From the NCBI GenBank assembly GCA_009829735.1, contig CM020619.1, forward strand, positions 14,065,777-14,129,776: a stretch of 64,000 nt of DNA, in the 5' to 3' direction. Both the position numbers and the translations under genes were made by a program. This stretch comes from Pyropia yezoensis (lineage: Eukaryota > Rhodophyta > Bangiophyceae > Bangiales > Bangiaceae). A model generated the notes under the pieces. It saw only the letters and a program-made list of their open reading frames with translations. It was not told the DNA's origin and ran no database searches. The stretch's first letter is position 1. Every line of letters starts with the position of its first letter. This document shows, in pieces, positions 36,547 to 61,502 of this stretch.

Positions 36547-36559
36547 CTCCCCTCTCCTC
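36547..36559 (-). other. Gypsy-1 polypurine tract
   Basis: On the minus strand GAGGAGAGGGGAG lies directly before the 3' LTR, the expected position and composition of the plus-strand primer for LTR retrotransposon replication. Confidence 0.8.
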
Positions 36560-36884
36560 AGTTCCGACCGACCCGGTCGGCCCTGTGAGGGGGTGCGTAA
36601 ACGCACGTCTCGGCGTTGGGGGCGCGACTTGCTGTCCCCCAGCGTGTACGTAACGCGGATGTGGAGGCGGTCACGTTGACCGCCCCTCTCCTCAAGCTTG
36701 CCCACTCGGCAGCTTGCTTTCTTCAGTTCACACTTCACCTTCACCACCACCTCCCTTTCACTTTCCACTGGGCCGCCCCACGCTGGGGAGGCCACCCGTA
36801 TACCCACGATCCGAGTCCCCCTCAACTCGAGGCGGGTCTCGTGCTGCGATAGCCAGAGCGTCTCTCCCCAACTTGGGGAGAGTC

Positions 36885-38828
36885 ATGGCGACTCCGGGAG
36901 TGGAGACGGACTCTCTTGACGAGCGCATGGAGGACACCTCCTACGGTGCAGCACCCGCCGGGACTTCCGGCGGGCGCTCCGCGATCGCTCCGGGGGATGA
37001 GACTCCCGCGTCACCCGGCTTTGGGTTGACGGCGGGATCTCCCCCGGAGGCGGGACAAGTTGTCCCGCGTGAGGCCTTGGGGCGGTGGTTTTACCCCGCT
37101 TGGCCTCTTTATGAGGAGGGGTTGACTGTTCTTCGCTGTGGCCGACTTGGCGCAGCGATGGGCCGGGTATGGGGCCGCCTACGGGAGAAGTATCCCCGTA
37201 GGGTCGGGTTCCCGGCCGGCTTCAGGACGGACCAGTTTGCCTTCCTGGACGACGAGGAGGTTGAAGACGTCCAACGTGCCAAGGCCATGGTGGACCGCGG
37301 GGGAACTATCCCGGGTCCCGGCGACTTGCCGACCTTCACGTGGGACGCTGTGGCAACTCGCCCACCGTACCTCCACGAGGCCGATCCGCACACTCATCAC
37401 TTTGATGTGCGGATGGAGAAAGACTTCCGGCGAGGTCCCTACTTGGTGACCTCGGCTCAAGTTGAGTTTCCTCAACAGTCTGCTGCCAGTAAGGAGCAGT
37501 ACTATCCGAAGAAGCCCGAGTGGTGGCCTCAAGTTGAGGTCCCCTACGGGTTCCCGGCGTTGTTGCCCCGGTTGCTTGACCACTTCGGCTCCGTCATGTT
37601 GACGGCTGCCCCTGATCACCTGGTGTGGGCCATGTTGGCCACCCAGTGGCTCCTCGAGGTCATGTCGACCTGGGTGTCCTGTGTTCAGCGGCGGGGGATG
37701 CTCTGGCATCTCCCCCTCCGGCTCATCCAGGGTTTGGAACAGCTCACCCCTCAGCTAGTTGCTGAGGGGTGCTCATCAGGACAACTCACTCTACTTGAGG
37801 AGATGCTCCGGCTCCATAAGTTTATCGAGTGGGAGAGCATTGAGCACAAGTTGCGCCGCCCCACTCGTGGGCCCAAGGACGATGGCGTACTTCGCCAGTT
37901 CGTGTGGGTCGCTCGTGAACTTCACGACGGCCGTGTGGTCCTACGAGAGGGGTTGGGCATCGGGGACTACCCGTATGCCCCGGGGGTGGATCGCCACACT
38001 GCGCCACCCCCGGACAAGCCCGTAGTTATGGCCGTGCCGTCCTATGATGACCACATGACTCAACCCACTGCGGGAGCCCCAAGTCGGGGTCGCAGTTACA
38101 CCCGGGTACCGCCACCTCGGCGGGCCCATCCGCTTCCTCCGGTTCCTTTCCAACCTCACGGGAACATCCCGATCAGCGTGGCCGTGGAGTCTTCCACCCC
38201 GGTGTCCCCCAACTTGGGGGCCACCCTCCTGACGGTATACCCCAAGTTGGTGTTGCCTCCCACGCCTCTAACCTCAGAGATGATGATCACCACGTTGGTG
38301 CGCACCATTTCCTGGTTGGCCGCGTCGACCGCAACCCTACAGAGTTCCGAGACTCCTCAACTTGAGGAGCGCGTTCGTACTGCAGTAGCGACCGCGAGTT
38401 GCGAGTCGGTGGCGGAGTTTATGGCAGCCGAGTTGGCTCGTATTGGGGCTATTATGCCCCAGCCAGCCCCACTTGGGCGTGGCAAACGTCGCGCGAGCCG
38501 GGCATACTCGCCTCCTCGCCGTCGTCGCCGACACTCTCGGCGCTCTCCCTCCGTGTCGGAAGACGAGTTGTCTTACTCCGTCTCGGAGTCCTCTACCCCG
38601 TCGGAGACGGAGTCTGTCCAGCGTCTGCGTCGCAAACTTGCGCGCAAGACCAGGCAGAAGAGTGGCCACGGTCGGCGCCACTTGCGCGACCGTGAGGGGC
38701 GCGACGGTTCCGACTTGGAGCCGCCGCCCCCTCCAACGAGTGGAGACCGTTATCGGCGTGGGTCTCGCCGCTCGCCTCCACGGGAGGGCGAGGGCCGTGG
38801 AGTGGGAGAGTCTAGCATGCGTGCCTAG
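36885..38828 (+). CDS. antisense ORF protein of Gypsy-1, unknown family
   Basis: A 647-residue protein on the strand opposite gag-pol, starting at ATG 36885 (AGTCATGGCG) just after a perfect hairpin at 36862-36882. It converges tail to tail with pol (111 bp apart). The N-terminus is acidic and disordered (MATPGVETDSLDERMEDTS). Residues about 60-390 look folded and Trp-rich (YPKKPEWWPQVEVPYGF, DHFGSVMLTAAPDH, VQRRGMLWHLPLRLIQGL). The C-terminus is basic with Arg-Ser repeats (RRRRRHSRRSPSVSEDELS). No known domain is recognised: no zinc knuckle, polymerase or nuclease motif. A related protein sits in the same place in Gypsy-2, with FGSV and HLP words at nearly the same spacing. Plant Ty3/gypsy elements with additional antisense ORFs are known, so the architecture has precedent; the protein family itself looks new to me. 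Confidence 0.75.
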   Translation: MATPGVETDSLDERMEDTSYGAAPAGTSGGRSAIAPGDETPASPGFGLTAGSPPEAGQVVPREALGRWFYPAWPLYEEGLTVLRCGRLGAAMGRVWGRLREKYPRRVGFPAGFRTDQFAFLDDEEVEDVQRAKAMVDRGGTIPGPGDLPTFTWDAVATRPPYLHEADPHTHHFDVRMEKDFRRGPYLVTSAQVEFPQQSAASKEQYYPKKPEWWPQVEVPYGFPALLPRLLDHFGSVMLTAAPDHLVWAMLATQWLLEVMSTWVSCVQRRGMLWHLPLRLIQGLEQLTPQLVAEGCSSGQLTLLEEMLRLHKFIEWESIEHKLRRPTRGPKDDGVLRQFVWVARELHDGRVVLREGLGIGDYPYAPGVDRHTAPPPDKPVVMAVPSYDDHMTQPTAGAPSRGRSYTRVPPPRRAHPLPPVPFQPHGNIPISVAVESSTPVSPNLGATLLTVYPKLVLPPTPLTSEMMITTLVRTISWLAASTATLQSSETPQLEERVRTAVATASCESVAEFMAAELARIGAIMPQPAPLGRGKRRASRAYSPPRRRRRHSRRSPSVSEDELSYSVSESSTPSETESVQRLRRKLARKTRQKSGHGRRHLRDREGRDGSDLEPPPPPTSGDRYRRGSRRSPPREGEGRGVGESSMRA

Positions 38829-38939
38829 TTGGCAGCTGCCTTTGTTGTGAGAGTGTGAGGGTTAGGGCTGTAGTTAAAAGCCACTCTACGTACCACTTCG
38901 ACTTGAAGCACTCTCGTGGCACTGTTGCTCGGCCTTCCC

Positions 38940-41900
38940 TCACGTTGAGGGAGGGCTGTTAGGGTCTATCTCATTCCGGGCACAGTACGCCCGTTCCTTC
39001 TCAGCAGGAAGGTCCTCCACATACTCCCATGTAGCGTCCTTGGCTTTGTAGCCAAACCAACGCACCCTCAACATGAGGCGGTCAGTGTCTTCATCCCATC
39101 CGTGGTCGATGAACTTATCGAACACGTACTCCTGCGGGCCCTGTTTGGCCGCAGGCAGTGAGGGGAGGCGCCACGACTCCAACGCACGTGCCCAAGCTGG
39201 GTCGCCTGCAGGCGGTGGTGCAACTTTGACCACGTCCTGTCCGTTCACTGTGCGGACCCCATCGTCACTTTCGATGGTGAAGCGCCGCCCATCAGTACGA
39301 AGGACCTGGTACGGTCCCTTCGTCTGGAATACCAGCTTACCCCCAGTTGGGGTGTGCGAGTGCACCAGCACCCAGTCACCCTGCTCGGGGACATGCTTAG
39401 CATTGCGCACCTTTTTGTCAAAGGTACGCTTGTAGCGCTTTTGTGCTTTGTCCATCTCAGCCCTGACTTTAGGGATGAGGTGCTCCAGCCTAGCAGCGAA
39501 CTCCGCCTTACTCTCAGTAGGAGTAGGCGTACTGCCACTACCCTCCCCAGTTGGGAGCGACCGCCGCACGGCAATAGACCGCACACGACGGGGGGTCACA
39601 AAAGCGAGGGGTACTTCCCCTGTAGATGAGTGAACCTGCGAATTGTAGGCAGTAGTAAGGATAGAAATGTATTGGTCCCACGTCTTCACGTGCTCACTCA
39701 CATAGTGGCGCAGCTGCCTAACAATAGTTTTGTTGAAGCGCTCCACCTGCCCATTAGTTTGTGGGTGGTAGCGGGTGGCATAGTTTGCCTTAACCCCCAA
39801 CATATCCAGCACTCCCTGAAACAGTACAGACGCAAATTGCGGTCCATTGTCCGATAGTGTACTATCTGGGATGCCATACGCGGCAACCCAGTGATCTAGG
39901 AAGGCTGACACGACCGACATGGCCGTGATCTCTGCCAGTGGGATCGCTCGCGTAAGTTTCGTGAAGCGGTCACAGATGACCAGGAGGTACTGGTTGCCTT
40001 CCTCGGTCACTGGCAGTGGCCCAAGGATGTCCATCGCCAACGCGGCGAAGGGCTCCTTGGCCGGGAACAATAGCATAGCCGTACTAGGCCGCCGTTCCAT
40101 CAGACGGTTCTGTGCACAGCTTGTGCAGGCAGCCACCCAACTGTAGATGTCCACCACCATGGACGGCCAGTAGTACCTGGTCCTCAGGGTCTGGTACAGT
40201 TTACTAGACCCCAGGTGTCCACCCGTGGGAGCGTTGTGCTCCCTCTCAAGGATACTGTCCTTGAGGGATGCGGGGACGACAAGTTGTTCAGTCCCCTGGA
40301 ATACCCCCCTCCTCATGAGGAGGCCATCATCTCCCAGAAAGAAGCGCGTCTCAACCATCGTATCCAATGTATCCCTCTGCGACTTGCAGAAGGGATCCTC
40401 GGCCTGGGCATTCACCACCTCGTCCAGGGACAGGGGCAAGTACTTCCTGTTCCCTGGCGCCTCGGGGTTCAACGCCTGACCCGAGCGCGTGACTACCCCC
40501 ACGATGGGGATGTCCTCATCGACTGGGTTAGTGTCCAGCCCCTCGGTGGGTACCCGAGAGAGGCCATCGGCAAGGGCATGTTGCCTGCCAGGTCGGTACT
40601 CAATGTCAAAGTTGAAGGGTGCCAGTCGCACCCTCCACCGGTTGAGACGAGTGTTCGTACAGTCCGTCTTGAAGATAAACTGCAACGCGCGGTGGTCACA
40701 GCGGATGAGGAACTTCTCACCCTCTAGGTAGTGACGAAGTGACGTCACCGCCCATACCACTGCGAGTCCTTCCAACTCGGTGACTCCGTAGTTCTTCTCG
40801 GCCGAGTTCAGCCCCTTACTGAAGTATCCCACCGGCAAGTACTCCTTGTCCGGCTGCTGCTGAAGCAACACGCAACCAAGTTGGTCGTAGCTAGCGTCCA
40901 CATCCAGGATGTAGTGGCCTCCCAACCTGGGAATTGCCAAGATGAAGGGCTTCAGCAGAAGGTCCCGAAGAGCGTCAAAGGATTCCTGCTCCACCCGACT
41001 TGGGGGAGGCAGGTTCTTCGGTAGCGTTGAGCTCACTAGCTCATTCAACGGCTTCGCCACCTTGGCGAAGCCCTTGGTGAAACGTCGGTACACGTTACAC
41101 ATCCCGAGGAAGCTCCTCATCTGGGTCTGGGTCCGGGGGTACTGAGCCTTACGTATGGCCCTCAAGTTCTTCTCGTTAACACTGAGACGCCCCGGACGGA
41201 CAACATGTCCCAAGTACTCCACCTCTTGAGTGAAGAGGTGGCACTTACTCGCCTTCAGTGACACACCGGCGTCAGCAAGTAGCTTGAACACCTGGCCAAG
41301 ATGGCCAATGTGTTCCTCCGGACTTCGGGAGAACACAATGATGTCGTCTAGGTACACAAGACAGATCTGCCACCGTACTCCGGCCAGAATCATGTCCATA
41401 GCGCGCTGGAAAGTTGCCGGCGCGTTACACAGACCAAACGGTAGGCGCTTGCACTGGTAGGTACCACAGTGACAGGTAAAGGTAGTTTTATGCCTGTCCT
41501 CCGGGGCAATGGGAATTTGCCAGTACCCCGCGTTACAGTCCAGGGTAGAGAACACGTTCGCCTCCCCCAGAGAGTCCAGACAGTCATCCATCCTAGGTAG
41601 GGGATAACTGTCCTTCACCGTGCTCTCGTTGAGCTTACGGTAGTCGATACAAAACCGGGGGGTCCCATCAACTTTGGGGACTATAACCACCGGACTCGCC
41701 CACTCGGCGTTGCTGGCCTCGATCACATCGAGGGCCTCCATGCGAGCAACTTGCTCCTTAACGAGCGCCCTTGAACGGGGTCCTCCCCTATACGGTTGTT
41801 GGCGTATAGGGGGTGCACCGGGCTTCAACTCGATCCGGTGTTGGGTAGCTCTCATGAGTCCCAATTGACCATCCCACAACTTGTGATATTGGTCCAAGAG

Positions 41901-42923
41901 GCGTTCAACTTGAACCCTCAACCTGGGGGGAACACCCTCCATGTTCACATGGGGCCGAGGAGAGGTGGCCGACTTGGCTTGATGCTTCTCCTTTCCGGAC
42001 TTCGGGTCGCTACTTGCGCCCGCGTTGAGGGTGACCGCTACTACCGGTCCCTCATGTTGGTCGATATAGCCGAACTTGGCTCCCGACTTGAAGTACTTGG
42101 GCGTCGGGCTCAGGTTCATCACCTGGATCCTCCACGGGACTCCGGCTTTGGAGTCCATCGTGCCAAGGGCAACATGCACTTGGTGCTTGCGAGCAAGACG
42201 GGGGTGAGGGTGCACCAACCCGTTCCCCGTATAATCAGTTACAACATCAACGTGCGCCACCGAGTTGGGGGGCAACGTGACTTTGCGGGCTAAACGCAGG
42301 GTAGCAGTAAACCCTTCCCTCACCGAACAAACAGGCTTCGACTGTGAGACTGTCACAGGAGCCACAGACTTTCCCTTACCAAGGATGGGGATAGTCTCCC
42401 CATTCATCAACTTGACCCAGTACTCGGGGCCACAGATCAAAGGCACTTGTGTTACGACATAAGGGGTACCCAGAAGCAGGGGTACCGATATATTCTCAAC
42501 TACACCATAGGTCACGTCGACCTCATGGGTCCCCAACCTAGTTGGTAGGGTCACGGCACCAACGATGGGAAGTACCCCACCATTGATGTCAATCATATGG
42601 TCAGCCTTGGACCTCCAGCGTTGGAGCTTCACCTCCTTTGGTAATAGCGACTTGCGTATCAAGGAGGCTCCTGACCCGGTATCAAGTACGATACGGGTAC
42701 AGCATGCACGGCCGGGGGCAAGTTGCACCCGTCCAGCCACCTGGAAGTTCTCACCCGTCAGCACCGCGATGACCCGACGTGGGTTTACGTTCTTGGGGAG
42801 TCCTACCCGAGGTGGGCGGACTCCCTTAGGTCGCCGCAGTATCCGGCACGGTTGGTTCGTCCTCCTGGCCCACTTGGCCGAGGCTGCCGTTGTGAGCTTC
42901 GGACGGCCAGCTCCAACGGTCAT
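38940..42923 (-). CDS. pol: Gypsy-1 Pol polyprotein (protease, RT, RNase H, integrase, chromodomain)
   Basis: An intact 1327-residue polyprotein with ATG at 42923. Aspartic protease active site DTGSGASLI at residue 81. Reverse transcriptase with the FCIDYRKLN region and the catalytic YLDDIIVFS near residue 521. Ty3-type RNase H with the ILDVDASYDQLGCVLL start and SAEKNYGVTELEGLAV. Integrase zinc finger REHNAPTGGHLGSS...CTSCAQNR (near 900) and D,D-35-E core: AMDILGPLP, LSDNGPQFAS, NGQVERFNKT. The last 60 residues form a chromodomain-like module (KFIDHGWDEDTDRLMLRVRW, then WEYVEDLP), which targets integration in chromoviruses. Its start overlaps the gag stop by four bases (ATGA), suggesting stop-restart translation. 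It encodes all enzymes for reverse transcription and insertion. Confidence 0.95.
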   Translation of the reverse strand: MTVGAGRPKLTTAASAKWARRTNQPCRILRRPKGVRPPRVGLPKNVNPRRVIAVLTGENFQVAGRVQLAPGRACCTRIVLDTGSGASLIRKSLLPKEVKLQRWRSKADHMIDINGGVLPIVGAVTLPTRLGTHEVDVTYGVVENISVPLLLGTPYVVTQVPLICGPEYWVKLMNGETIPILGKGKSVAPVTVSQSKPVCSVREGFTATLRLARKVTLPPNSVAHVDVVTDYTGNGLVHPHPRLARKHQVHVALGTMDSKAGVPWRIQVMNLSPTPKYFKSGAKFGYIDQHEGPVVAVTLNAGASSDPKSGKEKHQAKSATSPRPHVNMEGVPPRLRVQVERLLDQYHKLWDGQLGLMRATQHRIELKPGAPPIRQQPYRGGPRSRALVKEQVARMEALDVIEASNAEWASPVVIVPKVDGTPRFCIDYRKLNESTVKDSYPLPRMDDCLDSLGEANVFSTLDCNAGYWQIPIAPEDRHKTTFTCHCGTYQCKRLPFGLCNAPATFQRAMDMILAGVRWQICLVYLDDIIVFSRSPEEHIGHLGQVFKLLADAGVSLKASKCHLFTQEVEYLGHVVRPGRLSVNEKNLRAIRKAQYPRTQTQMRSFLGMCNVYRRFTKGFAKVAKPLNELVSSTLPKNLPPPSRVEQESFDALRDLLLKPFILAIPRLGGHYILDVDASYDQLGCVLLQQQPDKEYLPVGYFSKGLNSAEKNYGVTELEGLAVVWAVTSLRHYLEGEKFLIRCDHRALQFIFKTDCTNTRLNRWRVRLAPFNFDIEYRPGRQHALADGLSRVPTEGLDTNPVDEDIPIVGVVTRSGQALNPEAPGNRKYLPLSLDEVVNAQAEDPFCKSQRDTLDTMVETRFFLGDDGLLMRRGVFQGTEQLVVPASLKDSILEREHNAPTGGHLGSSKLYQTLRTRYYWPSMVVDIYSWVAACTSCAQNRLMERRPSTAMLLFPAKEPFAALAMDILGPLPVTEEGNQYLLVICDRFTKLTRAIPLAEITAMSVVSAFLDHWVAAYGIPDSTLSDNGPQFASVLFQGVLDMLGVKANYATRYHPQTNGQVERFNKTIVRQLRHYVSEHVKTWDQYISILTTAYNSQVHSSTGEVPLAFVTPRRVRSIAVRRSLPTGEGSGSTPTPTESKAEFAARLEHLIPKVRAEMDKAQKRYKRTFDKKVRNAKHVPEQGDWVLVHSHTPTGGKLVFQTKGPYQVLRTDGRRFTIESDDGVRTVNGQDVVKVAPPPAGDPAWARALESWRLPSLPAAKQGPQEYVFDKFIDHGWDEDTDRLMLRVRWFGYKAKDATWEYVEDLPAEKERAYCARNEIDPNSPPST

Positions 42924-44866
42924 TCGTTTCCCGCCGACTTGGCGTCCGAATCTGAGGGCGGGGAGGAAGACGACGAGTCCGAGGACGACGTGTCCGCCTC
43001 CTCCGCCGAGGGTGTGGCGACCGCGACGACCGGTCGAGACCCACCCTCGCGGCGTGAACGTACTTCGCTCGTAGCCGACTTCTTACTCGCATTCCTAACA
43101 AGTTGTTGGATGCGTTTACTCAACTTGGGGCAGTCATATGCCCAGTGTCCATCGGAGTTGCAGTTCCAACACCGATGGTCAGTTCCCGGAGGGGTCTTCC
43201 CAACTGGGGAAGACGAAGAGGTACCCTGGGAAGTTCCCACGGCAGCTACCACCCTCTCCTTGCGGATTCGGCGTGCCTCTCTCAACTCTCTGGCTTGGCG
43301 CGCCTCCTCCCGTTCCTTGGCCAACTCGGCCTGACGCTCCTGGCGATGTTCCTCCCGCAACTTGCGGAAGGCCTCGCCTCTGCGATAGGCGAACCTGGCC
43401 AACTCGGCCAGGGTCGCCCGGGCAGTGTTATGCTCCCGGGTCTCCATCCGGACTGACCAATGGAGTCCCTCCACAAACCGACTCTTCACCACAGCTTGTG
43501 GATGAAGAAACCCACAAAGATTGTTGAGCTTACGGACTCGCTCCGCAAAGGACAACTCGTCCTCCGCCTCTTCCTGATGGGCTTGCGTAAACTCCTCGAC
43601 TTGAGAAGCCAACGCTGCCTCATCAACCATGGCTCTCAACAACCAGTTGACGAGCTCCAAATAGGACGTCACCTCCCCAGCGCCTCCACTTGAGGAGCTG
43701 GGCATGACGGACATAAGTTCTGTCCGCAGGTCTCCCTTCGTAAACTCCTGTAGCATGTAAAAAGCCATGCCTTCACTTATGGCATTGTCGTCACAGGCTT
43801 TTGTGAAACGACGTAGGAACTCAAAGACACGGAGGGGGGGAGTTCCATCCCACTCCGCTCTGTGCCCAAAAGAATGAAGTGCATTCTTCTTGGCACGGCC
43901 CATAGCTCGGGCCTGGTCAGGACCATACGCCACCGACTTGTTGTGGAGGGCGCAGGTCTCACAGTCAAAGATCCGCTGGTAGACCGGGTTGGCTACCTGA
44001 ACCTTGGGCGGCACCTCACGTTGAGGGAACAGCCGCTGTGGCACTGGGGTAAGTCCACCCTCAGTGCCTGTAGTCTGGTACGGCGAGCTTGGTGTAGCCG
44101 CCGGCGTTTCCGAGGGGAACTCCCCCGTGAAGGGCGTACGCCCCACCGCGTATGGTGTGGCTCCCTCGTTGGGAGTCACAGGTGTCGCCCCCAGTTCGGG
44201 GCGACCCGAGGTAGGCGTCAGGAGAGATTTCCCCTGCGCCTGTGGGCTCGAAAGCCCCAATCCGGTCTGGACATTAAGGCCATCTGGCAAACTCGCCACA
44301 ATCTGATTCAGAATAGTATTCGTCATCGTGACCACCAGGTCCGGCAAAGTCTGCCGCAACACATTGGTCGCCTCCCGACGGACAGTTTCCGCGAGGAGGG
44401 GATTGACGACTCCAGTTGAGTCTCGGTCCGCCTCCGGGAGTCCACCTGAGGGGTAACCACGTTCCTCAGGGGTCTCAACCGGGGGCCTGGGCGCGAGCCC
44501 ATCACCGACCAACGGAGGTCCGCCGTCCTCCGAAAGCCTAGTTGGCGACGGCTCCAAGCCAAAGTTGGCTCCAACCCGAGTGGAACCCGCGGGGACAGTC
44601 CTCACCCCTTGGGACGTTCCCGTTGAGTATACCACACGGTGGCCAGACTTCGGCCCACCCACATCAGAAGTGTCACCCGAGTGAACTCCCGACTGATTCG
44701 GGGTGGCCTGTTGCCCGCCCGCACTTCCAGTCCTGCTGGCTTGAGGGACCTCTAGTCCCTCTGCGACCCCAGGTAAACCCACCTGTGTCTCACCAGTATT
44801 CAAAGGCACTGAAGTACGTGCGTCACCCGTGTACTCCCTGGACGACGGGGGGTCCGAGCTAGCCAT
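42920..44866 (-). CDS. gag: Gypsy-1 Gag protein
   Basis: A 648-residue capsid/nucleocapsid precursor. I chose ATG 44866 (MASSDPPSSREYTGDART), the first Met downstream of the 5' LTR and primer-binding site; the open frame runs further upstream through the LTR to 45217 but that part belongs to the LTR. The N-terminal third is disordered and Pro/Thr/Gly-rich. The middle has a retrotransposon gag-like helical region (LRVFEFLRRFTKACDDNAIS, FYMLQEFTKGDLRTELMSVM, EDELSFAERVRKLNNL, FVEGLHWSVR). A CCHC zinc knuckle, CWNCNSDGHWAYDC, is at residues about 564-577, followed by a Ser/Asp-rich tail. It ends in TGA overlapping the pol ATG. Gag assembles the cytoplasmic particle and binds the element RNA. Confidence 0.92.
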   Translation of the reverse strand: MASSDPPSSREYTGDARTSVPLNTGETQVGLPGVAEGLEVPQASRTGSAGGQQATPNQSGVHSGDTSDVGGPKSGHRVVYSTGTSQGVRTVPAGSTRVGANFGLEPSPTRLSEDGGPPLVGDGLAPRPPVETPEERGYPSGGLPEADRDSTGVVNPLLAETVRREATNVLRQTLPDLVVTMTNTILNQIVASLPDGLNVQTGLGLSSPQAQGKSLLTPTSGRPELGATPVTPNEGATPYAVGRTPFTGEFPSETPAATPSSPYQTTGTEGGLTPVPQRLFPQREVPPKVQVANPVYQRIFDCETCALHNKSVAYGPDQARAMGRAKKNALHSFGHRAEWDGTPPLRVFEFLRRFTKACDDNAISEGMAFYMLQEFTKGDLRTELMSVMPSSSSGGAGEVTSYLELVNWLLRAMVDEAALASQVEEFTQAHQEEAEDELSFAERVRKLNNLCGFLHPQAVVKSRFVEGLHWSVRMETREHNTARATLAELARFAYRRGEAFRKLREEHRQERQAELAKEREEARQARELREARRIRKERVVAAVGTSQGTSSSSPVGKTPPGTDHRCWNCNSDGHWAYDCPKLSKRIQQLVRNASKKSATSEVRSRREGGSRPVVAVATPSAEEADTSSSDSSSSSPPSDSDAKSAGNE

Positions 44867-44966
44867 GTTCGCTGACGATCCGTATGACACAGTCCAAGAC
44901 CACCGTTCCTCTGAGACAGAGGGCCCCCTACACCCGGGTGCACCCGGAGGTAAAGTTTTCCTCTGT

Positions 44967-44983
44967 CCCCTGCTGCTCCACCA
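44967..44983 (-). other. Gypsy-1 primer-binding site
   Basis: On the minus strand TGGTGGAGCAGCAGGGG begins two bases after the 5' LTR. TGG pairs with the CCA end of a tRNA. The implied tRNA 3' end is CTGCTCCACCA, not the initiator-Met tRNA used by many plant elements. Gypsy-2 has the same site with one change, which supports the call. Confidence 0.8.
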
Positions 44984-44985
44984 CA

Positions 44986-45454
44986 TGTGGCAAAAACCAC
45001 AAGCACACACGGCACCCAAGTTGGGGCGGTGTGCCAGGGCTGCCTCCCGTGTCGGGGGAACCGGAAGAAGTGCAAGTCGCACACACTCTGTCCCTGTTGT
45101 GGGGCAAACCCCCCACGGACAAACAAGAGGATGGTGTGTGGTCCAACAGTTTCTTGGTTGGGACGGGGACGCAGGGCCAAGCCCCGCTGTCCCTCCCCTT
45201 ATCCCCCCAGGGTCCACTCAGAATCTCGCCACTCAGAATCTCCCACCCCAGCACCTGCCCACCGGGCCACACGAAAATTCAAGACGATAAATGCAGAAAA
45301 CCCTCAAATCCAAGTTGGATTTACTACTAAGCTAACTATCCCAAACTTAGGGAATATGGACCCAAATGCAGGGGGAGGAACGGATCAGGCTAGTGGCCTG
45401 CCGCCCCTTGCATGGCACGTGTTGCCCCCCTACCTGGGGGTGAATACTGCCACA
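44986..45454 (-). repeat. Gypsy-1 5' LTR (right copy)
   Basis: 469 bp and identical to the left LTR except for three substitutions that I can see (near 45160, 45332 and 45442). It should carry the promoter for gag-pol on the minus strand. Followed by the target duplication CTGGG at 45455-45459. Confidence 0.95.
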
Positions 45455-45459
45455 CTGGG

Positions 45460-45838
45460 AGGAGGGGGAGGGGAGGGAGTGTTCGGCTAGGCTGCGCTGG
45501 ATGGGGGAGGTGGGTCAGAGGGCGGAGCGAACATAGGGAATCAAGAGGCGCGCCGGCTGTGGCCGCGTCGCGTGAGGGTGTCCTGGCGTGCCTCCAGTGT
45601 GTATGTTTAGGTTTGTCGCAGCGAGGCTGGGAGCGTCTATGGCACTGACCCTGTGGGCTCAATGGGGCTCTGCCCGTCGTCTGCTGTGCCTGGCAGCCAC
45701 CAAACCAGTCCAGTGGTAGGGGTACCATGGGGCCACCGCCCTTCACTAAATATATACAGCAGCATGGATAGAGTATTGTATGGCGCCCCCGTGACAGTCT
45801 ATTGAGACTGCATTGAACAAAAGCGACCATGCCACTGG
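45460..45838. other. short intergenic region
   Basis: This runs from the Gypsy-1 target duplication to the stop codon of the RING gene. It is G-rich at the left edge and less GC-rich at about 45580-45830. Likely the 3' untranslated region of the RING gene. No gene is seen. Confidence 0.5.
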
Positions 45839-47054
45839 TCATGTCGGATTGGGCAGGGCCAGGAGGTCCCTCACGTTTCGTCCACAAGTTGGGCAGGTGG
45901 CGGCGTGCGCGAACCAGACGTCGATGCACGAGCTTGCATGGAATACGTGCATGCATGGGAGCCAACGCACCACGTCGCCAGCCACGCAGTCCTCTTTGCA
46001 AAATGAGGCACTGCCGGTCCGTGCCGGTGCGGGCGCCCAGGCCACCCTCACCAACAGTAGACGTAAGCACCTGGTCCAGCACCCAGCCAGGCACACTCCT
46101 CAGCCTGGCACTCCGTCGTGGCTCCGCCCCAGGCAGCAGCACATGGTCGCGACGGCTACACCGATAAGTCGGCGACGGCCTGCGTGTGTGGCTCCTGCGT
46201 GCCCGCTTGAGCGAGCGCCAAGGACGCGGCCGTTCGCTTGCAGCGTCCACGGCGTCATCCCACACGCCGGGAGCGTCGAAGGATGAGCCGCGCAGAACAA
46301 CCTGGGCTTCAGCAGGCAGCACGGTAGTAAATGGCCTTCGTTGCAGCCGGCGACGCCGGCAAGACCACAGCATTGGAGCCCGTGCCCGCAAAATCGACTT
46401 CATGCCAGACCCGTGCGGAGCCGTGGCCCTACCAAGCGCCGCCACGGCGTGATTGTCGGCGCTTGTCCCCTCATCCTGAGAGAGGGCCCCCCTGCTCTCC
46501 CCTTCCGCGGCCTTGTGAAAGTGCCAGTTGACAGCCTCCATGATTGCACAGCCCGCGGCCGCAGCGTCGTCCCTGCCGCCAGCGAAAGCCTCGGCCTCTT
46601 CAACAGTAGCCTGTCGGCGGCAGTGAGCAGCGGTACGGCTGACGCCCCCGGTGGCTACCGTGCTGCTCTCACCGACGGCAGCCCCACCGACCCTGTCATC
46701 AGCAATGACCCCGTGACTGCCGGCGACCCCGTCGCAGGCGTCTTCACAGTGACGACCAGGGGCGACAGGGCCAGATCCCCCGGCCGTGACTGCCCTGTGC
46801 TGGCTGGCAGCGACGCCATCCACTCCGCGGGCGGCTGCGGCATTGTCCCCGCCAGAGGAGGCGGTCCGACCTTCCTTTCGGGTCCACCCAAGAAGATTGC
46901 AGCGCCGCTTAGCGTTTGGCTCGGCGTGGACCTTGGCACCACCACGCCGCTTGCTGTACTTGCGCTTTTTGCCTCGGTCTCGACGCGCGGGCTTGTCGAG
47001 CGCGGCGGTCGTGGGCTCAGCCACGCCCGCCCGCGGCAGCGGCAGCTCCGCCAT
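45839..47054 (-). CDS. RING-H2 finger protein (probable E3 ubiquitin ligase) with one-base frameshift
   Basis: Starting at ATG 47054 (MAELPLPRAGVAEPTTAA), about 350 residues run in one frame, with a basic nuclear-localisation-like stretch (KPARRDRGKKRKYSKRRGG) near the N-terminus and a long Ala/Gly/Arg-rich middle. Near 45999-46002 the sense strand reads ATTTTGCAAAGAGG. If it had one T fewer, the frame ...QCLI would continue directly as CKEDCVAGDVVRWLPCMHVF, then CIDVWF and CPTCGRN, a textbook RING-H2 finger ending at TGA 45839. As it stands the first zinc-binding Cys is in one frame and the other seven ligands in another. This could be an assembly error, a strain-specific null or an early pseudogene. 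RING-H2 proteins usually transfer ubiquitin from an E2; substrate unknown. Confidence 0.7.
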
Positions 47055-47583
47055 GTTGTGCGGACCTTTGAAGACGGGGGGTTGCGGGGGGGGGTTGCGG
47101 AACGAGGTGGGAAGGAGGGGAGCAGGAACAGGGAGTGCGTCGGTCGTTAAGGGGCGATGGCAACAAAGGGCAAGGCAGGGTACGGTTCTCAGGACTGGGG
47201 AACACTTCTTGTTCTGTGATGGGCCGGCAGCGTCCGCGAGGAGGACAGGACGCAGGGGGACTGATGGGCGGGCGCACACCGGCAGCGGGCGCCTGTCCAG
47301 TTGTGGAGTCGACCTGGTCATTGTCACTGTCGCACCCACACGCCGTCATTAATTTCAGTCCCCCCCGCTCCTCCCCTGGTGGCGGTGAACCTCCCCAACC
47401 GAGTGCCCGCGCCCGTGCCCCACCCCAGCAGTGCCATGAGGGGCCTGTCAGTACGCATGCTCTAGACCCTCCCCCCGGGCAGTTGCAAACCTTCCACGAC
47501 CACGCATGTGGCAGGGCATCCACGCGCGGGCGGCAGGCGGCCGCACACGGAGGGGGGGTGGATGCGGGGCGCGGGCGGGGTTG
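47055..47583. other. upstream region of the RING gene
   Basis: The RING frame stays open to 47339, but this part is Pro/Arg-rich and less convincing. The rest shows no coding signal on either strand. It probably holds the promoter and leader of the RING gene. Confidence 0.4.
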
Positions 47584-48160
47584 GAGGCGGGGCGGGGGTG
47601 GAAGCGTGTTGGGGGTGGAAGCTGGGCGAGGGTGGAAGTGGGGCGGGAGAGCGGGGACTCTCGGCTGGGGGCCTCCGGGTGGGGGGGCACTGGCCCCGGG
47701 GAGCGCGCGCCAGCAACGATTTGGTGGGAGGGCAGGCGAAGGGTCGCGAGTGGAAATAGGGGGGAGTCGCGCCTAGTCAATGGGCAAGGGGGCACAGCTG
47801 GGGGAGTCACGGCTTCCTCGCTCTCTGTTCGCCCGCAAGTCTGCGTGCAGAGAGCAGACTTGCGGGCGGGCGGGGGCGGGGGTGGAGGCGGGGCGGGGGT
47901 GGAAGCGTGTCGGGGGTGGAAGCTGGGCGGGGGTGGAAGTGGGGCGGGTGAGCGGGGACTCTTGGCTGGGGGCCTCCGGGGGGGGGGGCACTGGCCCCGG
48001 GGAGCGCACGCGAGCAACGATTGGGTGGGAGGGCAGGCGAAGGGTCGCGAGTGGAAATAAGGGGGAGTCGCGCCTAGTCAATGGGCAAGGGGGCACAGCA
48101 CATCTGGGGGAGTCACGGCTTGCTCGCTCTCTATTCGCCTGCAAGTCTGTGTGCAGCGAG
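47584..48160. repeat. tandem duplication, unit about 301 bp
   Basis: The segment starting GAGGCGGGGCGGGGGTGGAA at 47584 recurs at 47885. Both copies continue through CTGGGGGCCTCCGG, CACTGGCCCCGGGGAGCGC, AGTCAATGGGCAAGGGGG and GAGTCACGGCTT with scattered differences and one small insertion. G-rich, with an internal short GGGGGTGGAAG repeat. No coding frame is preserved between the copies. Confidence 0.85.
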
Positions 48161-48400
48161 GAAGACACGGAGCCGTCGCGGAGCTGTGCAACGGCGGGTT
48201 GCCGACAACAGTGTACCAGAGATGGAAGCATCACGAGCGCGCGGCGGGCAGGCGGGAGGTCTCGTGGGTGGGGAAGCGGTCAGAGTGGTGGGTAGCGGGG
48301 GCACGGAAGCGGGGGACAGGTGGATGACTGGATAGCTGCGGCGGGAGGCGCCGCCAGAGCAAACTGGCTCAACTGGTATTGCCTGTCACACCTTTGCCGG

Positions 48401-48680
48401 AATACGCGGGCTTTGGCAGCACCAGGCGAGCCCTGGCTACGCGGACCTTGCCCGCACCAGCCGAGACCAGGCTACGCGAGCCTCGCTCGCTCCAGCCGTG
48501 ACCAGGCTACGCGGGCCTTGCCCGCACCAGCCGAGACCAGGCTACGCGAGCCCCGCTCGCACCAGCCGAGACTAGGCTACGCGGGCCTTGCCCGCACCAG
48601 CCGAGACCAGGCTACGCGAGCCTCGCTCGCACCAGCCGAGACCAGGATACGTGGGGTTTGCCCGCACCAGCCGAGACCAA
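48401..48680. repeat. 35-bp tandem repeat with alternating, co-varying hairpin arms
   Basis: Eight units at 48401 (degenerate), 48436, 48471, 48506, 48541, 48576, 48611 and 48646. The shared part is GCTACGCG at the start and CACCAGCCGAGACCAG at the end. Between these, units alternate between GCGGGC-CTT-GCCCGC and GCGAGC-CTC-GCTCGC. Both are perfect hairpins that differ by paired G-C to A-T changes. The 35-bp unit is not a multiple of three, so protein coding does not explain the conservation. Units abut without spacers, so it is not a CRISPR. Confidence 0.88.
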
Positions 48681-50935
48681 GCTTCACTGGCCCCTCCTAA
48701 CCTACAAAGTCTGTGCGGCATCTACGTCATTGTGTGCTCCCGTCGCCATCAACGCCACTGCTTGTGCCTATAACTCATCGACACTTCTAGAGCCTGTTTT
48801 GACACGGTCGGGCACGGCTGCACTTTCTTCCCTACTCTTCGTCGTCCTCTTCGGCCAGCTCTGCGAGACTCTCATCCGCTGCAGCCAGCCGAGCCGGGGG
48901 ACGGCACCACCACCACAACGGCGGCCAGGGCGGCGGCGAGGCGGCCGTCGACCACCGCCGCAGACTCCGCCGCGGCGCGCGCGGGGCGGGCGCACGCGGC
49001 CCGTGGAGGGGCGGTCGGGGGCGTCGGGTTGGGGGGTAGCACACCAGACGAACACGCCGTCGCGGGAAGCAGCACGGTGGCTAGGGGGCCGCCGGAGGTG
49101 CACGCGAGGGGTACCGTTCAACGAGCCGCGGCGGCCACGGGCTATCCCGCAGGGGCACCGACACAGCGGTGGGGACGGCCAAGGCTGACGCCCCTGCCGC
49201 AGCTGCTGCTGCTCCCGCCGCGCCTTGTGCCGCGGTCGCCGTTTCTGGCGCAGCCTCCACTTCTGCCGAAATGGCCGCTGGCGTCGCCGACGCCTGCCCA
49301 AAAGTCAACCGGCGCGCCCACGGGGCTCGCGCCGACGCCTCGGCTACGGTGGCGGTGGCGCACACGGCGGCGGAGGTCACCACGGCTGTGGCCGTGGACG
49401 GAGCGGCGTCAAACTGGGTGGCCAGCCGGGAGTCGTCAAAGTCAAATACCGGCGACACGGGTCCCGCCGGCTATGGCCATAGACGCTACGGCGGCAGCTG
49501 AGGCGGCAGGGGCAGCGGCTGCATCGCCGCCGCCATCGTCGCCGCCGCCGTCGCCGCCCTCTCTCCGACCCTTGCCCCCGTCGCCGCCGTCAATCGCCCC
49601 CATGCACGAGGACGGGGGGGGAAGCTCCGGCTGGACCGGAGGGTGGCGGCCGTCGGCAGCGCCGCCCACGTCGTCGTCCGAGTCAGAGGCAGCGGGCGCG
49701 CCCCCACACTGCGCCTGCCGCTGGCAGGCCGCGGCCGCGCTTCAATGGCCGCCGCCGCCGCCGTCGCCGCGCCCGCGCCCACCCCCGCCCTCGTCGCCGC
49801 CGTCATACCCCCCTTTGCACGGGGATGCGGGGAGGGGCGCCGGCGGGACCGGAGGATGGCGGCCGTGGTGCTCGCCGTGGCCGCCGCAAGCGTCAGTGAC
49901 CGTCACAGCAGCCGGCGGGGGGTAGCGCGGCCGCCCGCTTTACCTCCCCCACCACCCGCCGCCACCGCGTCCGTCGTGAGCCCGGTAGGCGGCTTCTGCT
50001 GCCGCGGTTGCGGCGGCAGCGGCGGTAGTCTCGGCTGTGGCGGCGGCCGGGGGGGTGCAGGCACTGCAAGGGGGATCCCCACACAGTGAGCTGTCGGTCG
50101 CTGACAGCGGGTGGTGCCGGGCGACCCGTCGGCAGCCGGCCGGAGGACGGCGGGGGGGGTGGCGGGAGCGGGGGGATCCCCCGCTGGAAGATATGTCCCC
50201 GTGTCCTTCTCGCTGCTGTCCTTGTCGGTGCCGGCTGCGGCGGCTGCGACGCCCCCCCGGCCTTCAGCGTTGTCATCGGCCTCAGCGTCGGCAACGCCTT
50301 CCACGTCGTCGTCCGCGTTGTCGGCAACGGACGTCCCGCCCACACTGCGCCAAGCGCCGCCACGCCGCGGCCGCGCTCGACCGCAGCGGCGGTCGGCCCC
50401 GCCGATGGAGGGATCGTCATCAGCACCGGCGACCGCTACCCACACGGGCTGCCAGCTGCCGCCAGGGAGGGTGGCTGCCGCCGCGTCGCCGTCGCCGCTG
50501 CCACGCCCACCTGCGCCATCGCCGTGCTTGTCCGCATCAGCGTCAAGGTCGCCATCAGCGTCGGCATTGGCATGCGTGTCCGCGTCGACGGTGGCCGTCG
50601 CAGGAGCACCGTCCCATTGTCGGGGCCGCCGTTGCAGGGGGTGCGCCGCATGTTCGCCATCGGGGCTGCCGCCCGTCGAGGAAGGCCCTGGTGGACGAGC
50701 GTAATACTGAGGGAGCGGGTGGTGGGGGCGGCCGCCGCCACCACGTTGCCGCCGCCACCACGTTGCCGCCGCCGCCACCGCCGCCGAGCCCACCACCCGC
50801 GGCGACGTCGGCTCCGGACTAGGCGGTCACTGCGGAGTAGGCGGTCAGGTTGGTGGGGCGAGTGAGCTGGGCAACCAACCCCGGCGTCGGCGTCGGTTTC
50901 GGCAGCGCCGCATAGGCTGCGTCGATGACGGGGTG
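48681..50935. other. region with unrecognised acidic/Ala-rich minus-strand ORFs
   Basis: Two minus-strand frames look slightly more protein-like than background: 49081-49458 (SPVFDFDDSRLATQFDAAP) and 49903-50796, which contains ADNADDDVEGVADAEADDNA. The acidic words recur around 49660 (SDSDDDVGGAAD), and the DNA at 49660-49740 is similar to 50287-50377, so part of the region is a diverged duplication of about 630 bp. The aspartate-alanine repeat near 50550 comes from a hexanucleotide repeat. I recognise no family and see no reliable start. Confidence 0.3.
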
Positions 50936-51063
50936 CTACGCCACTTGAGCTGCGCCATCTCGGGGCGCAGTACCGCTGGCAGACGCGTTGGCGGACGTGC
51001 CCGCGGAGGCGGCGGAGGAGGCGCACACCCACACCCGCAATGCCGCGGTGGCGCCTGCGCCAC
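50936..51063 (-). pseudogene. host reading frame interrupted by Gypsy-2, 3' piece
   Basis: On the minus strand the open frame coming from 61962-61881 (ARAELVFDCRAQSVLVQGG), joined across one copy of the 5-bp target duplication, continues here as AGATAALRVWVCASSAAS and ends at TAG (50936-50938). The join is in frame and gives about 68 residues in all, open into the N gap. This looks like the end of a host gene disrupted by Gypsy-2. The protein is not recognised. In such GC-rich DNA an open frame of this length could be chance. Confidence 0.4.
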
Positions 51064-51425
51064 TGTAGCACAATAGGAATCCGTCGCACGTCCACTCTCA
51101 GGGAACACTCACCAAGGGGGATCGGCACCAACGTCACCGGGAGGCCAAGGTTGCTGTCCTTGGAGCGCAAGCCACGGGACCAAGATGGGAGCCCAAATGG
51201 GAGGGGTTTGTTGTTCTCCTTGGCCGGCGGTGGATTCGCCACCGGCCCCCTCGTTATAAACCCTCGGAGACACTACTAACTACCCTCCACCCCAAGATGC
51301 AAGTCCCTCTGGTCATACGTAACTTATAGATACCGTGACCAGCTCGGACTCTCAAATTGAAAGTTAAGGATTAGAAGTAGCCCCCCTAATATTAGCGTCA
51401 CAATACGGACAACCATATTGCTACA
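51064..51425 (-). repeat. Gypsy-2 3' LTR (left copy)
   Basis: 362 bp and nearly identical to 61520-61880. On the minus strand it contains TATA-like words (TATCTATAAG and GTTTATAACG) that may belong to the promoter in the 5' copy. Confidence 0.95.
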
Positions 51426-51437
51426 TATCCCCCCCTT
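51426..51437 (-). other. Gypsy-2 polypurine tract
   Basis: On the minus strand AAGGGGGGGATA lies directly before the 3' LTR, the expected plus-strand primer site. Confidence 0.7.
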
Positions 51438-52265
51438 AGATTCGGCCCGTCCTCGGGTCGAGTTGCATTCGGGTTACCGAATGTAAGTGGGTCGCGTGAC
51501 TGTTTACCCGTCGGGGGGGGCTTTGCGCCCCGTCGCGACAGACACCCCTTTTCGAGGTTGTCCGAGGGGGGTGCCCCCCTTTGTGTGGTACACACACGAT
51601 CCGTTTTCCGGACCGTTAATTTCCCGATGCGGGTTTTTGTTCACGACCCCCCTTTCCGAGGGGTGGTGCAAGCGGATCCGCCACCAGGTGCCTGGTGGTA
51701 GGGGGGTCCCTCTCGTGTGGACGATTGAGTGGGGGGCGGGGGCTGCCCGCGTTGCGTGGGGGGCGGTTGGGGGTGACCCCCCTTGCTTACCCCGTGTGTG
51801 GGGGTGGCCCCGTCCCGCCCAGGTGCCTGGGTGGGGCGCGTTCGTAGCCCCGTGCGGCGTGGGTCGACCCGCGTGTTTGTGGCGCTTCTCGTGGCCGTTG
51901 GTGGTCATAAGCGCGGGTGCCTGCGCTTCCCTGGCTCGTCCCGGTTATCCCACCGTACCGGGTCGTAGCCGTCGACGGCTTGTGGGCGCGGGGGACTCTG
52001 CACCCGTTATCATGTCCTATCCCCAGGTGCTTGGAGAGGAGGAAGACCTCCTGATCGGGGAGGAGATGGAGGACGACGCGCCTGTCGGTCCCGACGCCGC
52101 GCGTTACGGGGTGAGCTCGTCTGACGACGACGGGCCTGCGGTGGCCGTCTGTCGGCCGGAGGACTGTCGTCCGTGTGCAGCGGCACGACGGTGCCGTCGG
52201 CCGGAGGTCAACCCGGCGGTCAACCGCGCGTGGCGGCTTCTACCCCCTCTCTGCCGGCTGCCCGG
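51438..52265 (+). other. leader of the Gypsy-2 antisense ORF
   Basis: Plus-strand sequence between the LTR and the first in-frame ATG of the antisense ORF. An ATG at 52011 opens a different frame with an acidic, protein-like start (SYPQVLGEEEDLLIGEEMED) that would need a frame change near 52150-52170 to enter the main ORF. The same arrangement is present in the copy after the N gap. It may be the true N-terminus joined by an intron or by frameshifting, or an upstream ORF. Confidence 0.4.
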
Positions 52266-54455
52266 ATGGAGCCTGGTGCCGGTGCCGGCTCACCGCAGCT
52301 ACCTCAAGATGGTCCGCCCTGCGGCGGAGGTGGCGACCCGCAGCCGACTCCGGCTGGTCAAGGTGGTCCGGGTGTCCGGGCGGTGACTCCTCGAGGCGGT
52401 CCCGACGTTGACGCGGGTGGTGGTGGCGGTGCGACACCCGGTGCGGCGGGTCAAGACGGTGCGGGTGTCCGCACGGCCGGGGCTCCGGCTCCGGAGGCTG
52501 TCCAAGTGCCTTCCCCTTCCGAGGCGGGGGCTACGCCGACGGGTGGTGCCGGCGCCGGTACCGTACCTGCGGTGCCGCGGGCGTCGAGCGGTCAAGACGC
52601 TCCTTCTCCCATGGCGGTTGACACCGGGAGTTACTCCGGGCGGGCGCCCGCCCTTCTTCTTCCTCCTCGGCCTCGTCCATCTCCGACGTCGGCCCCTCTG
52701 CCGGTGGTGCGTCCCCCGGCGCCCCCGATTCTTCCTGGTCCTGCCCGGGTTGCCCCGTTGGGTGGCGGCGTCGCCGTGGCGGCGGGTCAACCCGCCATGT
52801 CGGTGTCCGACTTGGTGGCTCGGGTTCGAGGCCTCACGGTGCAAGAGTCGATGGAGTCCGATGGGCGTATGCGGGTGGACTTCCACCTGGTGCATCCCCG
52901 TGGAGAGTCCTCCCGCCGCGTTAAGGTGGACCCGAGCTGGGAGCGGGAGTTGGTGCGGCTGGTCAACCAGCCGAACGCGGTCCGGGTGGAACACCATTGG
53001 ATCCTGAGTCAGCCGGACGACCGGCATGCGCAGCTCTGGCGCACCCGGGTGGGACGGGGTGAGGTCTACCTCGACCCCAACTTCGGGGTCTGCGACCTGA
53101 TTGCCCCCGCGTTGCCGCGGGAGATTGACTACCCGGCTAGTGCTCGGGGGATTGCGGCGGCGGCGGAGCCGGTTGCGTTTGGGGAGACGGTGAGCCGTAC
53201 CGGTCGGTATCCCGACTTTGACTACTACCCGGGGGTACCCCCGTATCTGTCGTTGACGGCTCCCTACCCGCCCATGGCGGGGTTGAAGTCGGCGTCGAGT
53301 TGGCGACGTAACCATGGTGTCATGGCGGATGCGTTCCGCACGGATATAACGTGTGCGTTGCAGACCGGCAACGGTCGTGCTCCGGTATACACTCCCGTGC
53401 GCCCGCCGCTATGGCAGGAGGGGTGGGAACCCGCCCCTGCTTTCCGGTTTGACACCGGCTCCTGCCTTCGCTACTTCGGGAGTGTGTTGGATTCGCGACC
53501 GGTCCACCCGTTGCAAGGTACCTTCACCCTTGAGGTTACCCTCGGGCAGGCTTCATCCTTCTTGCTGTCCGTCCGCCGGCAGGGTCGTCTGTTTCATCTC
53601 CCGACGGGTGTCCGTCGGCACATCGCGCAGTTGGGCGTGGATCTGATAGCCGCCAAGACCGGGTTGGCCCGGGAGTTCGAAGCCCTGCTGGCTGTTCACG
53701 ATGCCGTGAACTGGGCTGGGGTGTTGGCCCTTCCCCCGTACCGGGACCCGCAGGCTGGGGCTTCCCCCTTGCCTCGTCACTCGTTGCGTGTCCGGCGTAC
53801 TCAGCCGGGTGAGCCTAGTTGCCATGGGTGGGCGTCCACCGAGGCCGTTCCTGACCTGGGTATTCCCATGGTTATCCATGACCCTCTTCAGGTCCTTGCT
53901 CCGTGGTTCGGTAACCCGATGCCGGCGGCGGTTGGCCGTCGTCCCCGAGAGTGGGGCTCTGTGGGTGGGGAGCGTGAGGTGTCCCGTCGTCGGGCGGAGT
54001 ACCGCCGTGGTTACGGTGGAGCCCCTTCGGTAGGGTCCTACCGGGCCTCGTATCAGGTGCCACCGGCTCCGGTGGTAGCCGTGTCGGCTCCTGTGGCTCC
54101 TCTGGCTGCGCCAGTGTCACCTCCCGCCCCTGTCCTACATGACGGGGGTCCCCGTCTCTGGTATGAGGGCGTTGACGCCCTTGTTACCCGCGCAATGCGT
54201 GGGGGTCTCTCTGTTAGCTGGGGGGATATCCCCCCAGGTGCTGCGCTGGTTGGGTCAGCGCGTTGCTTCGGTGGCGTGCTGGACCGCCTCCAGAAAGCTC
54301 TGGAGGACGTGGAGGCTGGCCGCAGCACCCTCGTCCAGCTATGCACCGAGGTAACTCGGGTGGTCGACCGTCGTGACGTTGCCGACCGGTGGAGCACGGA
54401 GGTCTACGCGCTTACGCGTGAGTGGCCTCCCTCGGGCAGTGGGTCTACCCACTGA
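52266..54455 (+). CDS. antisense ORF protein of Gypsy-2, unknown family
   Basis: 729 residues from the first in-frame ATG at 52266 (MEPGAGAGSPQLPQDG); the frame is open further upstream from a GTG at 52173. The first 180 residues are Pro/Gly/Ala-rich and disordered. The folded region begins with MSVSDLVARVRGLTVQESME and includes DFHLVHPRGESSRRVKVDP, WEPAPAFRF, RYFGSVLDSRPVH and VRRQGRLFHLPTGVRRHI. It ends with a helical stretch (RLQKALEDVEAGRSTLVQLC). It lies opposite to gag-pol and converges on pol with a 480-bp gap. The FGSV (residue 404) to HLP (444) block resembles the Gypsy-1 antisense protein (234 and 275). No catalytic motif is recognised. A Gag-like or regulatory role is speculation. 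Intact here, broken by indels in the copy at 62463-64000. Confidence 0.75.
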   Translation: MEPGAGAGSPQLPQDGPPCGGGGDPQPTPAGQGGPGVRAVTPRGGPDVDAGGGGGATPGAAGQDGAGVRTAGAPAPEAVQVPSPSEAGATPTGGAGAGTVPAVPRASSGQDAPSPMAVDTGSYSGRAPALLLPPRPRPSPTSAPLPVVRPPAPPILPGPARVAPLGGGVAVAAGQPAMSVSDLVARVRGLTVQESMESDGRMRVDFHLVHPRGESSRRVKVDPSWERELVRLVNQPNAVRVEHHWILSQPDDRHAQLWRTRVGRGEVYLDPNFGVCDLIAPALPREIDYPASARGIAAAAEPVAFGETVSRTGRYPDFDYYPGVPPYLSLTAPYPPMAGLKSASSWRRNHGVMADAFRTDITCALQTGNGRAPVYTPVRPPLWQEGWEPAPAFRFDTGSCLRYFGSVLDSRPVHPLQGTFTLEVTLGQASSFLLSVRRQGRLFHLPTGVRRHIAQLGVDLIAAKTGLAREFEALLAVHDAVNWAGVLALPPYRDPQAGASPLPRHSLRVRRTQPGEPSCHGWASTEAVPDLGIPMVIHDPLQVLAPWFGNPMPAAVGRRPREWGSVGGEREVSRRRAEYRRGYGGAPSVGSYRASYQVPPAPVVAVSAPVAPLAAPVSPPAPVLHDGGPRLWYEGVDALVTRAMRGGLSVSWGDIPPGAALVGSARCFGGVLDRLQKALEDVEAGRSTLVQLCTEVTRVVDRRDVADRWSTEVYALTREWPPSGSGSTH

Positions 54456-61294: not shown

Positions 61295-61502
61295 AGTCAC
61301 AATCAGTCAACCGACGCAACGATCACCACGAATAAGAGAGCGAGGGGGTAGATTGGGGAGAGTAACAGTAGGTCACAGTCACAGGTAAAAGCTCAACACA
61401 ATCGATCAGGTCGCAACACCACGAGTACAAGAAAAGGACCGGATCCCTATCCGTGTGCCAGGGCCGAAGACGGCGTCACCACAAGGGTGACGGAAAACCC
61501 GT

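Follow-up and report, generated by a model that had tools for sequence, protein, structure and literature searches.

In two LTR retrotransposons of the red alga Pyropia (Neopyropia) yezoensis, a long open reading frame lies antisense to pol in the interval from pol to the 3' LTR; it is very probably a protein-coding accessory gene found in several Ty3/gypsy families. We base this reading on the kinship of the encoded proteins across families, on low ratios of replacement to synonymous change, and, in one family, on changes common to several copies that are nearly all synonymous. The gene is probably ancestral to the families, here named A, B and C. In the P. yezoensis genome the repeats are reported to be mainly LTR retrotransposons (PMC7423979).

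Two elements with an antisense frame converging on pol

The window, meaning the whole stretch of 64,000 nucleotides that was analysed (G000:C2:14065777-14129776), holds an element of family A (element 1) and an element of family B (element 2; Table 1). Both are Ty3/gypsy LTR retrotransposons, as seen from their LTR pairs, 5-bp target duplications, primer binding sites, polypurine tracts and the order protease-RT-RNase H-integrase in pol (Pfam; the protease matches are below the cut-offs). The LTRs of element 1 are 469 bp long and have 3 differences, and those of element 2 have 3 mismatches and 3 gap positions. The two pols are 40% identical over 1351 aa and end in a chromodomain-like stretch that scores 17.1 bits in family A, 11.5 in B and 20.8 in C, against a Pfam cut-off of 25.1. 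The first-pass annotation had proposed that the two elements have a common primer site, and we find it as TGGTGGAGCAG(C/T)AGGG. In the window copy the gag region of element 2 is scattered over several frames, whereas its pol is a single open frame.

Table 1. Positions of the two elements and their parts in the window
Feature	Position	Strand	Basis or remark
Element 1, whole	36078-45454	-	LTRs and target duplication
Element 1, 3' LTR	36078..36546	-	Target duplication CTGGG outside
Element 1, polypurine tract	36547..36562	-	ACTGAGGAGAGGGGAG on element strand
Element 1, putative antisense accessory gene (family A)	36885..38828	+	647 aa
Element 1, pol	38940..42923	-	Pfam: protease-like, RT, RNase H, integrase, weak chromodomain-like end
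Element 1, gag open frame with zinc knuckle	42920..45217	-	Pfam; frame starts inside LTR, true start later
Element 1, 5' LTR	44986..45454	-	Primer site TGGTGGAGCAGCAGGG just inside
Element 2, whole	51064-61880	-	LTRs and target duplication
Element 2, 3' LTR	51064..51425	-	Target duplication GCCAC outside
Element 2, antisense gene, N-terminal part	52012..52172	+	Different frame in window copy
Element 2, putative antisense accessory gene (family B)	52173..54455	+	ATG at 52266, 729 aa; frame open from 52173
Element 2, pol	54935..58963	-	One open frame; Pfam
Element 2, gag region	59209..61306	-	Assigned by position
Element 2, 5' LTR	61520..61880	-	Primer site TGGTGGAGCAGTAGGG just inside

The coordinates bear out the claim that a long ORF lies on the opposite strand between pol and the 3' LTR in both elements and converges with pol. 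The stops of the antisense gene and of pol are 111 bp apart in element 1 and 479 bp apart in element 2, and the leader between the LTR and the antisense start codon is 338 bp in element 1 and, measured to the ATG place at 52012, 586 bp in element 2. In element 2 the gene had been described as an ORF of 729 residues; this plus-strand frame exists (52266-54455), but the true start is upstream, at 52012, in another frame in the window copy. An in-frame ATG with an MSYPQV-like start stands at this place in 13 of 16 other family B copies (L035-L050). The codon is leucine in L039, and in L042, as in the window copy, this end is in another frame; the sequence of L049 does not include the N-terminal end. 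Counted from the MSYPQV point, 14 family B proteins have 779-875 aa, six of them 815.

Between elements 1 and 2 we observed a 35-bp tandem repeat array (48368-48717) and a pair of 232-bp direct repeats at 47567-48099, which are 301 bp apart and 95% identical. A scaffold gap of 500 N at 61963-62462 is followed by a second copy of the internal region of element 2 (99.8% identical over 7545 aligned columns), which runs to 70000, past the window; this tandem layout may be an assembly join.

The antisense proteins of families A and B are related

From stop to stop the frames measure 724 codons in element 1 and 776 in element 2. We generated 1000 first-order Markov sequences for each region, and their longest frames, 396 and 479 codons, were all shorter than the real ones. 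The first-pass annotation had considered the two proteins probably related, and this holds: the window proteins are 25% identical over 189 aa in BLASTP (E 6e-10), with a score of 50.4 bits compared to a maximum of 38.1 in 1000 shuffles that keep local composition (0/1000 reach it), and the comparison of profiles by hhalign is also significant (E 4.3e-6, probability 87%; E 9.7e-6 with a broader family B profile). The common core is ∼190 residues long and lies at about residues 104-319 of the family A window protein and 315-517 of the 760-aa frame of element 2. Within it FGSV stands at residue 234 or 404 and HLP follows 41 or 40 residues later, exactly as had been claimed.

A third family with the gene and a more distant lineage without a match

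A search led by pol, with an RNase H model, gave at least 150 matches, including pols of other families. The pol of one locus, L058, is 48% identical to that of element 1 and 44% to that of element 2, and the antisense frame after it matches the family A protein (tblastn E 7e-8). In this family, C, the antisense frame is present at six of six loci chosen by pol (L058, L061-L065), and its position adjoining pol was seen directly in one, L058. The fullest copies are L064 (705 aa from the ATG) and L063 (651); L062 is split in two, L061 and L065 are open for only 550 and 597 codons, and L058 runs into N. The copy at L065 adjoins family B antisense-gene sequence (2800-3999), a nested or neighbouring insertion.

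None of 500 shuffles reached the score between family A and either of two family C members, and hhalign gave E 1.8e-5 for the two families. Pairwise similarity between B and C was not significant, as 118 and 381 of 500 shuffles reached the score, and the hhalign result was only suggestive (E 0.013, probability 3%, same register); the kinship of B and C therefore rests on A as the link.

Two further loci, L059 and L060 (lineage D), have pols that share 29-33% identity with the A, B and C pols; that of L059 has a clear chromodomain (51.0 bits). With the A and B antisense proteins as queries, no match was found in the 2.3-2.5 kb after pol at these two loci, a stretch that may end short of the 3' LTR. 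After the pol of L059 there is an unrelated antisense frame of 406 codons, and the lineage D copy at L060 adjoins family A gag-like sequence (4739-5500, 92%), again a nested or neighbouring insertion. The idea of an ancestral accessory gene, put forward from the window elements, is supported by the third family with the gene and by the two more distant loci without it. With this small sampling, the distribution fits a gene gained once, before A, B and C separated, so that the common ancestor of these families would already have carried it.

In protein searches, which scored the best 8000 candidates by word sharing, there was 1 match for A, 7 for B and 13 for a joint alignment. Seven of the matches are named, all as hypothetical proteins of Pyropia vietnamensis that are 42-60% identical to the B query; they are known as protein records.

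Most scored copies of the gene are open

Family A and B copies were collected as the best-scoring matches to the antisense gene itself, and these lists therefore give no measure of how many elements carry the gene or how many copies are intact. Among the best family A matches (68 scored of 3680 candidates), 64 had no stop; a query with the 100-aa core gave at least 150 matches, none of those listed having a stop inside that stretch, and three of five copies picked from this list were open over the whole gene. For family B, 56 of the 59 best matches (scored of 37218 candidates) had no stop, and two other queries gave 126 and at least 150 matches. The family B relatives examined are 51-99.6% identical to the element 2 protein, and at six of six loci examined the opposite-strand pol lies just downstream of the antisense gene. 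Broken copies of the gene also exist (L062, L066, L069 and others). The first-pass annotation had named absence of the ORF from other copies as evidence against its reading. In family C, chosen by pol, the frame was found at every locus, though not always unbroken; in families A and B, found through the gene, elements lacking it would be invisible. Its two other refuting conditions, a non-significant profile match and a dN/dS near 1, are clearly contradicted by the results for these proteins.

The antisense gene is under purifying selection

Assessed separately from pol, the ratio of replacement to synonymous change in the antisense gene is well below 1 in all three families, mostly 0.09-0.4. 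In family A the pooled pN/pS is 0.090 (435 pairs, 30 loci), compared to 0.203 to 4.75 for the other five frames of the same DNA. The value of 0.203 belongs to the frame on the other strand in which the weakly constrained positions fall on the same sites as in the gene, and no minus-strand ORF of 200 aa is listed at the family A gene. For pol in the same set of loci, leaving out pairs under 90% ungapped identity, we obtained 0.238 from 220 of the 435 pairs, and 0.168 for the last 200 codons from 419 of 435.

Changes common to at least two of the 30 family A copies comprise 74 synonymous and 8 replacement changes, and singletons 49 and 72, respectively. At the 21 of these loci with a gap-free pol alignment, shared changes (synonymous:replacement) number 33:3 in the antisense gene and 30:9 in pol, and singletons 46:61 and 44:79. 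The 30 loci were taken as the top matches to the window protein among 68 that were scored, and are therefore biased towards few replacements; in a less biased sample (five copies chosen by the 100-aa core plus the window copy, scored outside the core) the ratio was 0.158, with shared changes at 33:1 and singletons at 45:44.

In family B, nine pairs with dS values as high as 1.7 give ratios of 0.27-0.39, and pooling 11 copies of one group gives 0.38. Residues 366-465 of the family B protein give 0.07-0.13, and single stretches of 100 columns elsewhere reach up to 0.70. Over 21 pairs the family B antisense gene has 0.27-0.61 versus 0.09-0.16 for pol. Family C gives 0.23-0.25 in five of six pairs and 0.47 in one. 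These data show that the antisense gene is under purifying selection, strongest on the changes that copies share. A gene needed by lineages that are still replicating is expected to be weakly constrained in its private changes and strongly in its shared ones, and this pattern ties the protein to the replication of the element. The strong selection suggests that the elements need the protein to spread.

Divergent gene versions on similar pols

When L048/L053 is compared with four other family B elements (L042/L054, L047/L055, L046/L056, L043/L052), dS is 0.19-0.27 in pol and 0.70-0.83 in the antisense gene, while other family B pairs have similar dS in both (e.g. 0.21 and 0.19). In the row 'win' of this comparison the window pol is paired with the antisense gene of L035 (99.6% identical), since the beginning of the window gene lies in another frame; the result for L048/L053 is independent of the 'win' rows. 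The simplest reading is that recombination would have combined similar pols with antisense genes of divergent sequence; unequal rates are a possible alternative.

Such divergent versions would be in keeping with a protein that encounters a host factor, and the family B protein also changes faster than pol. Both points can be accommodated if the product counters host silencing, as a suppressor of small-RNA or chromatin silencing. Its most conserved stretch is slow, however (residues 366-465), and we consider this action rather unlikely.

Protein features and library searches

The N-terminal part of the proteins is Pro/Gly/Ser-rich, with an acidic start in family B (MSYPQVLGEEEDLLIGEEMEDD). The core blocks PP(Y/F)L, E(V/I/P)(P/A)..F and an L(W/F)(H/F)LP-like motif are present in A, B and C, and FGSV is found in A and most B members. 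The core is followed by a Pro-rich linker and a C-terminal part that looks helical by eye. A basic Arg/Ser-rich stretch occurs in family A only, from about residue 534 of the window protein, near its C-terminal end. The two window proteins have no transmembrane-like segment (maximum 19-residue mean hydropathy 1.23 and 1.37).

Searches of Pfam, NCBIfam and PDB sequences gave no convincing match, nor did PHROGs, searched with the two window proteins only, in agreement with the earlier suggestion that the protein is undescribed. GAPDH (PDB, E 0.04-1.5) was dismissed because its matches fall on a Gly/Ala-rich stretch, a methylesterase match at E 0.7 was dismissed, and DUF6214 (E 0.08) is below its cut-off. 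In the viral contigs of IMG/VR six stretches fit a pattern, none of them a relative. A three-family profile showed no similarity to the gag of element 1, the sole gag compared (hhalign E 0.43), and this comparison lends no support to an origin from gag. An env-like gene was rejected because of the antisense orientation and the lack of a transmembrane-like segment in the two window proteins.

A structural or particle protein (a second capsid-like, a movement-like or an envelope-like one) coded antisense would be compatible with an accessory gene and differs from the other readings in the action of the product. The long conserved core speaks for it, as does selection in family A that is about as strong as on pol (shared changes at the 21 loci). 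Given the hydropathy of the window proteins, the dissimilarity to the element 1 gag and the outcome of the Pfam and PDB searches, such a role appears unlikely. We tentatively entertain, as a possibility falling short of the probable, that the accessory protein is a nuclear RNA- or chromatin-binding regulator, by analogy with Grande gene23 in location and with HTLV HBZ in layout. For B and C this nuclear guess carries little weight, as the Arg/Ser-rich stretch occurs in A only.

Comparison with known antisense genes

HTLV-1 HBZ is a short bZIP-type protein, and the Pyropia proteins have no such domain by Pfam. HBZ and similar retroviral genes resemble the Pyropia gene in being coded antisense near the 3' LTR, and HBZ is described as nuclear and regulatory (PMC11963269, PMC7264820). 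An antisense additional ORF between pol and the 3' LTR is known in plant elements as aORF-3R (PMC7264820), and an ORF in this place and orientation is what we find in the window and at other loci. The first-pass annotation was correct that the layout has a precedent in plant Ty3/gypsy elements, namely the antisense ORFs of Retand and Grande (PMC11963269, PMC7264820). The Retand/Tat elements (Grande gene23, RIRE2, Retand ORF4) are likewise Ty3/gypsy elements, whose antisense extra gene sits between pol and the 3' LTR and is retained within families and from species to species (PMC11963269, PMC7264820), and in Retand the antisense TRP28 protein is reported from 97% of element clusters (PMC11963269).

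The Retand/Tat antisense protein has the TRP28 domain PF04195 (Transposase_28), for which hmmscan of A, B, C and P. vietnamensis members gave no match at E<=1. The hosts also differ, flowering plants there and a red alga here, and Retand is described as a non-chromovirus lineage, whereas the Pyropia pol ends in the weak chromodomain-like stretch. The candidate Pyropia gene is thus of the same kind as plant aORF-3R by position and outside the TRP28 family by the Pfam test. Outside plants, Boty of Botrytis/Sclerotinia is alike by its description in having an antisense ORF between pol and the 3' LTR (PMC7264820). Sense env-like ORFs (Athila, Bagy2; PMC7264820) are also extra genes between pol and the 3' LTR, but the Pyropia gene has the opposite orientation and its window proteins no transmembrane-like segment. 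The precedents in the reviews, as far as their accounts extend, are from flowering plants and a fungal element (PMC7264820, PMC11963269), and we found no account of such an antisense gene in red algae among the open-access papers searched.

Discussion

Transcription of the accessory gene would start at an antisense promoter, located within or beside the 3' LTR or else in the leader; such a promoter would make the gene readable without gag-pol. The product would then act in trans as an accessory protein needed for spread, perhaps as a nuclear protein that binds element RNA or chromatin and regulates transcription, export or integration.

Alternatively, the antisense RNA and not the protein could be the functional product, with convergent transcription giving dsRNA that silences or tunes the element. 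The convergent layout, with 111 and 479 bp between stops, would suit this, and antisense regulatory RNAs are known in other elements (PMC7264820). An RNA role alone, however, predicts no codon pattern, and selection acts on the amino-acid reading of the plus-strand frame, which makes it very unlikely that the RNA is the product in place of the protein; the two roles may coexist. That the similarity is convergence or common composition, in frames open merely through GC-rich DNA, is hardly credible: the low identity (23-27%), the Pro/Arg/Ala-rich flanks and the non-significant B-C comparison would agree with it, but shuffles keeping local composition never reach the A-B score (0/1000) or the A-B and A-C scores (0/500 in each of four comparisons), the frames are longer than in all Markov sequences, and the frame is under selection; together this largely contradicts it.

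We therefore retain the protein-coding accessory gene as our reading. In its widest form, which we would put a little below an even chance, an undescribed protein family, with named records so far only from Pyropia/Neopyropia, is an obligatory antisense accessory factor that marks an ancient red algal Ty3/gypsy clade, is independent of the plant TRP28 genes, and has had divergent versions exchanged on similar pols as in a host conflict. Antisense accessory genes have long been on record in LTR retrotransposons, with no function assigned to them. Red algae have a different protein family at the corresponding site and on the corresponding strand, which speaks for more than one origin of the arrangement and for a usefulness of its own. 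With at least 150 matches each to families A and B in a cultivated alga, expression and knock-down tests are feasible.

One further region contains several matches to the antisense gene. At G000:C2:9880988-9891916 four matches are spaced 3489 bp apart. The unit, seen in L057 (9883900-9888900), consists of an LTR, the leader and the family B antisense gene and lacks gag-pol; neighbouring units are identical over their 1512 overlapping bases. The array of antisense genes may be real or may be an artefact of the assembly.
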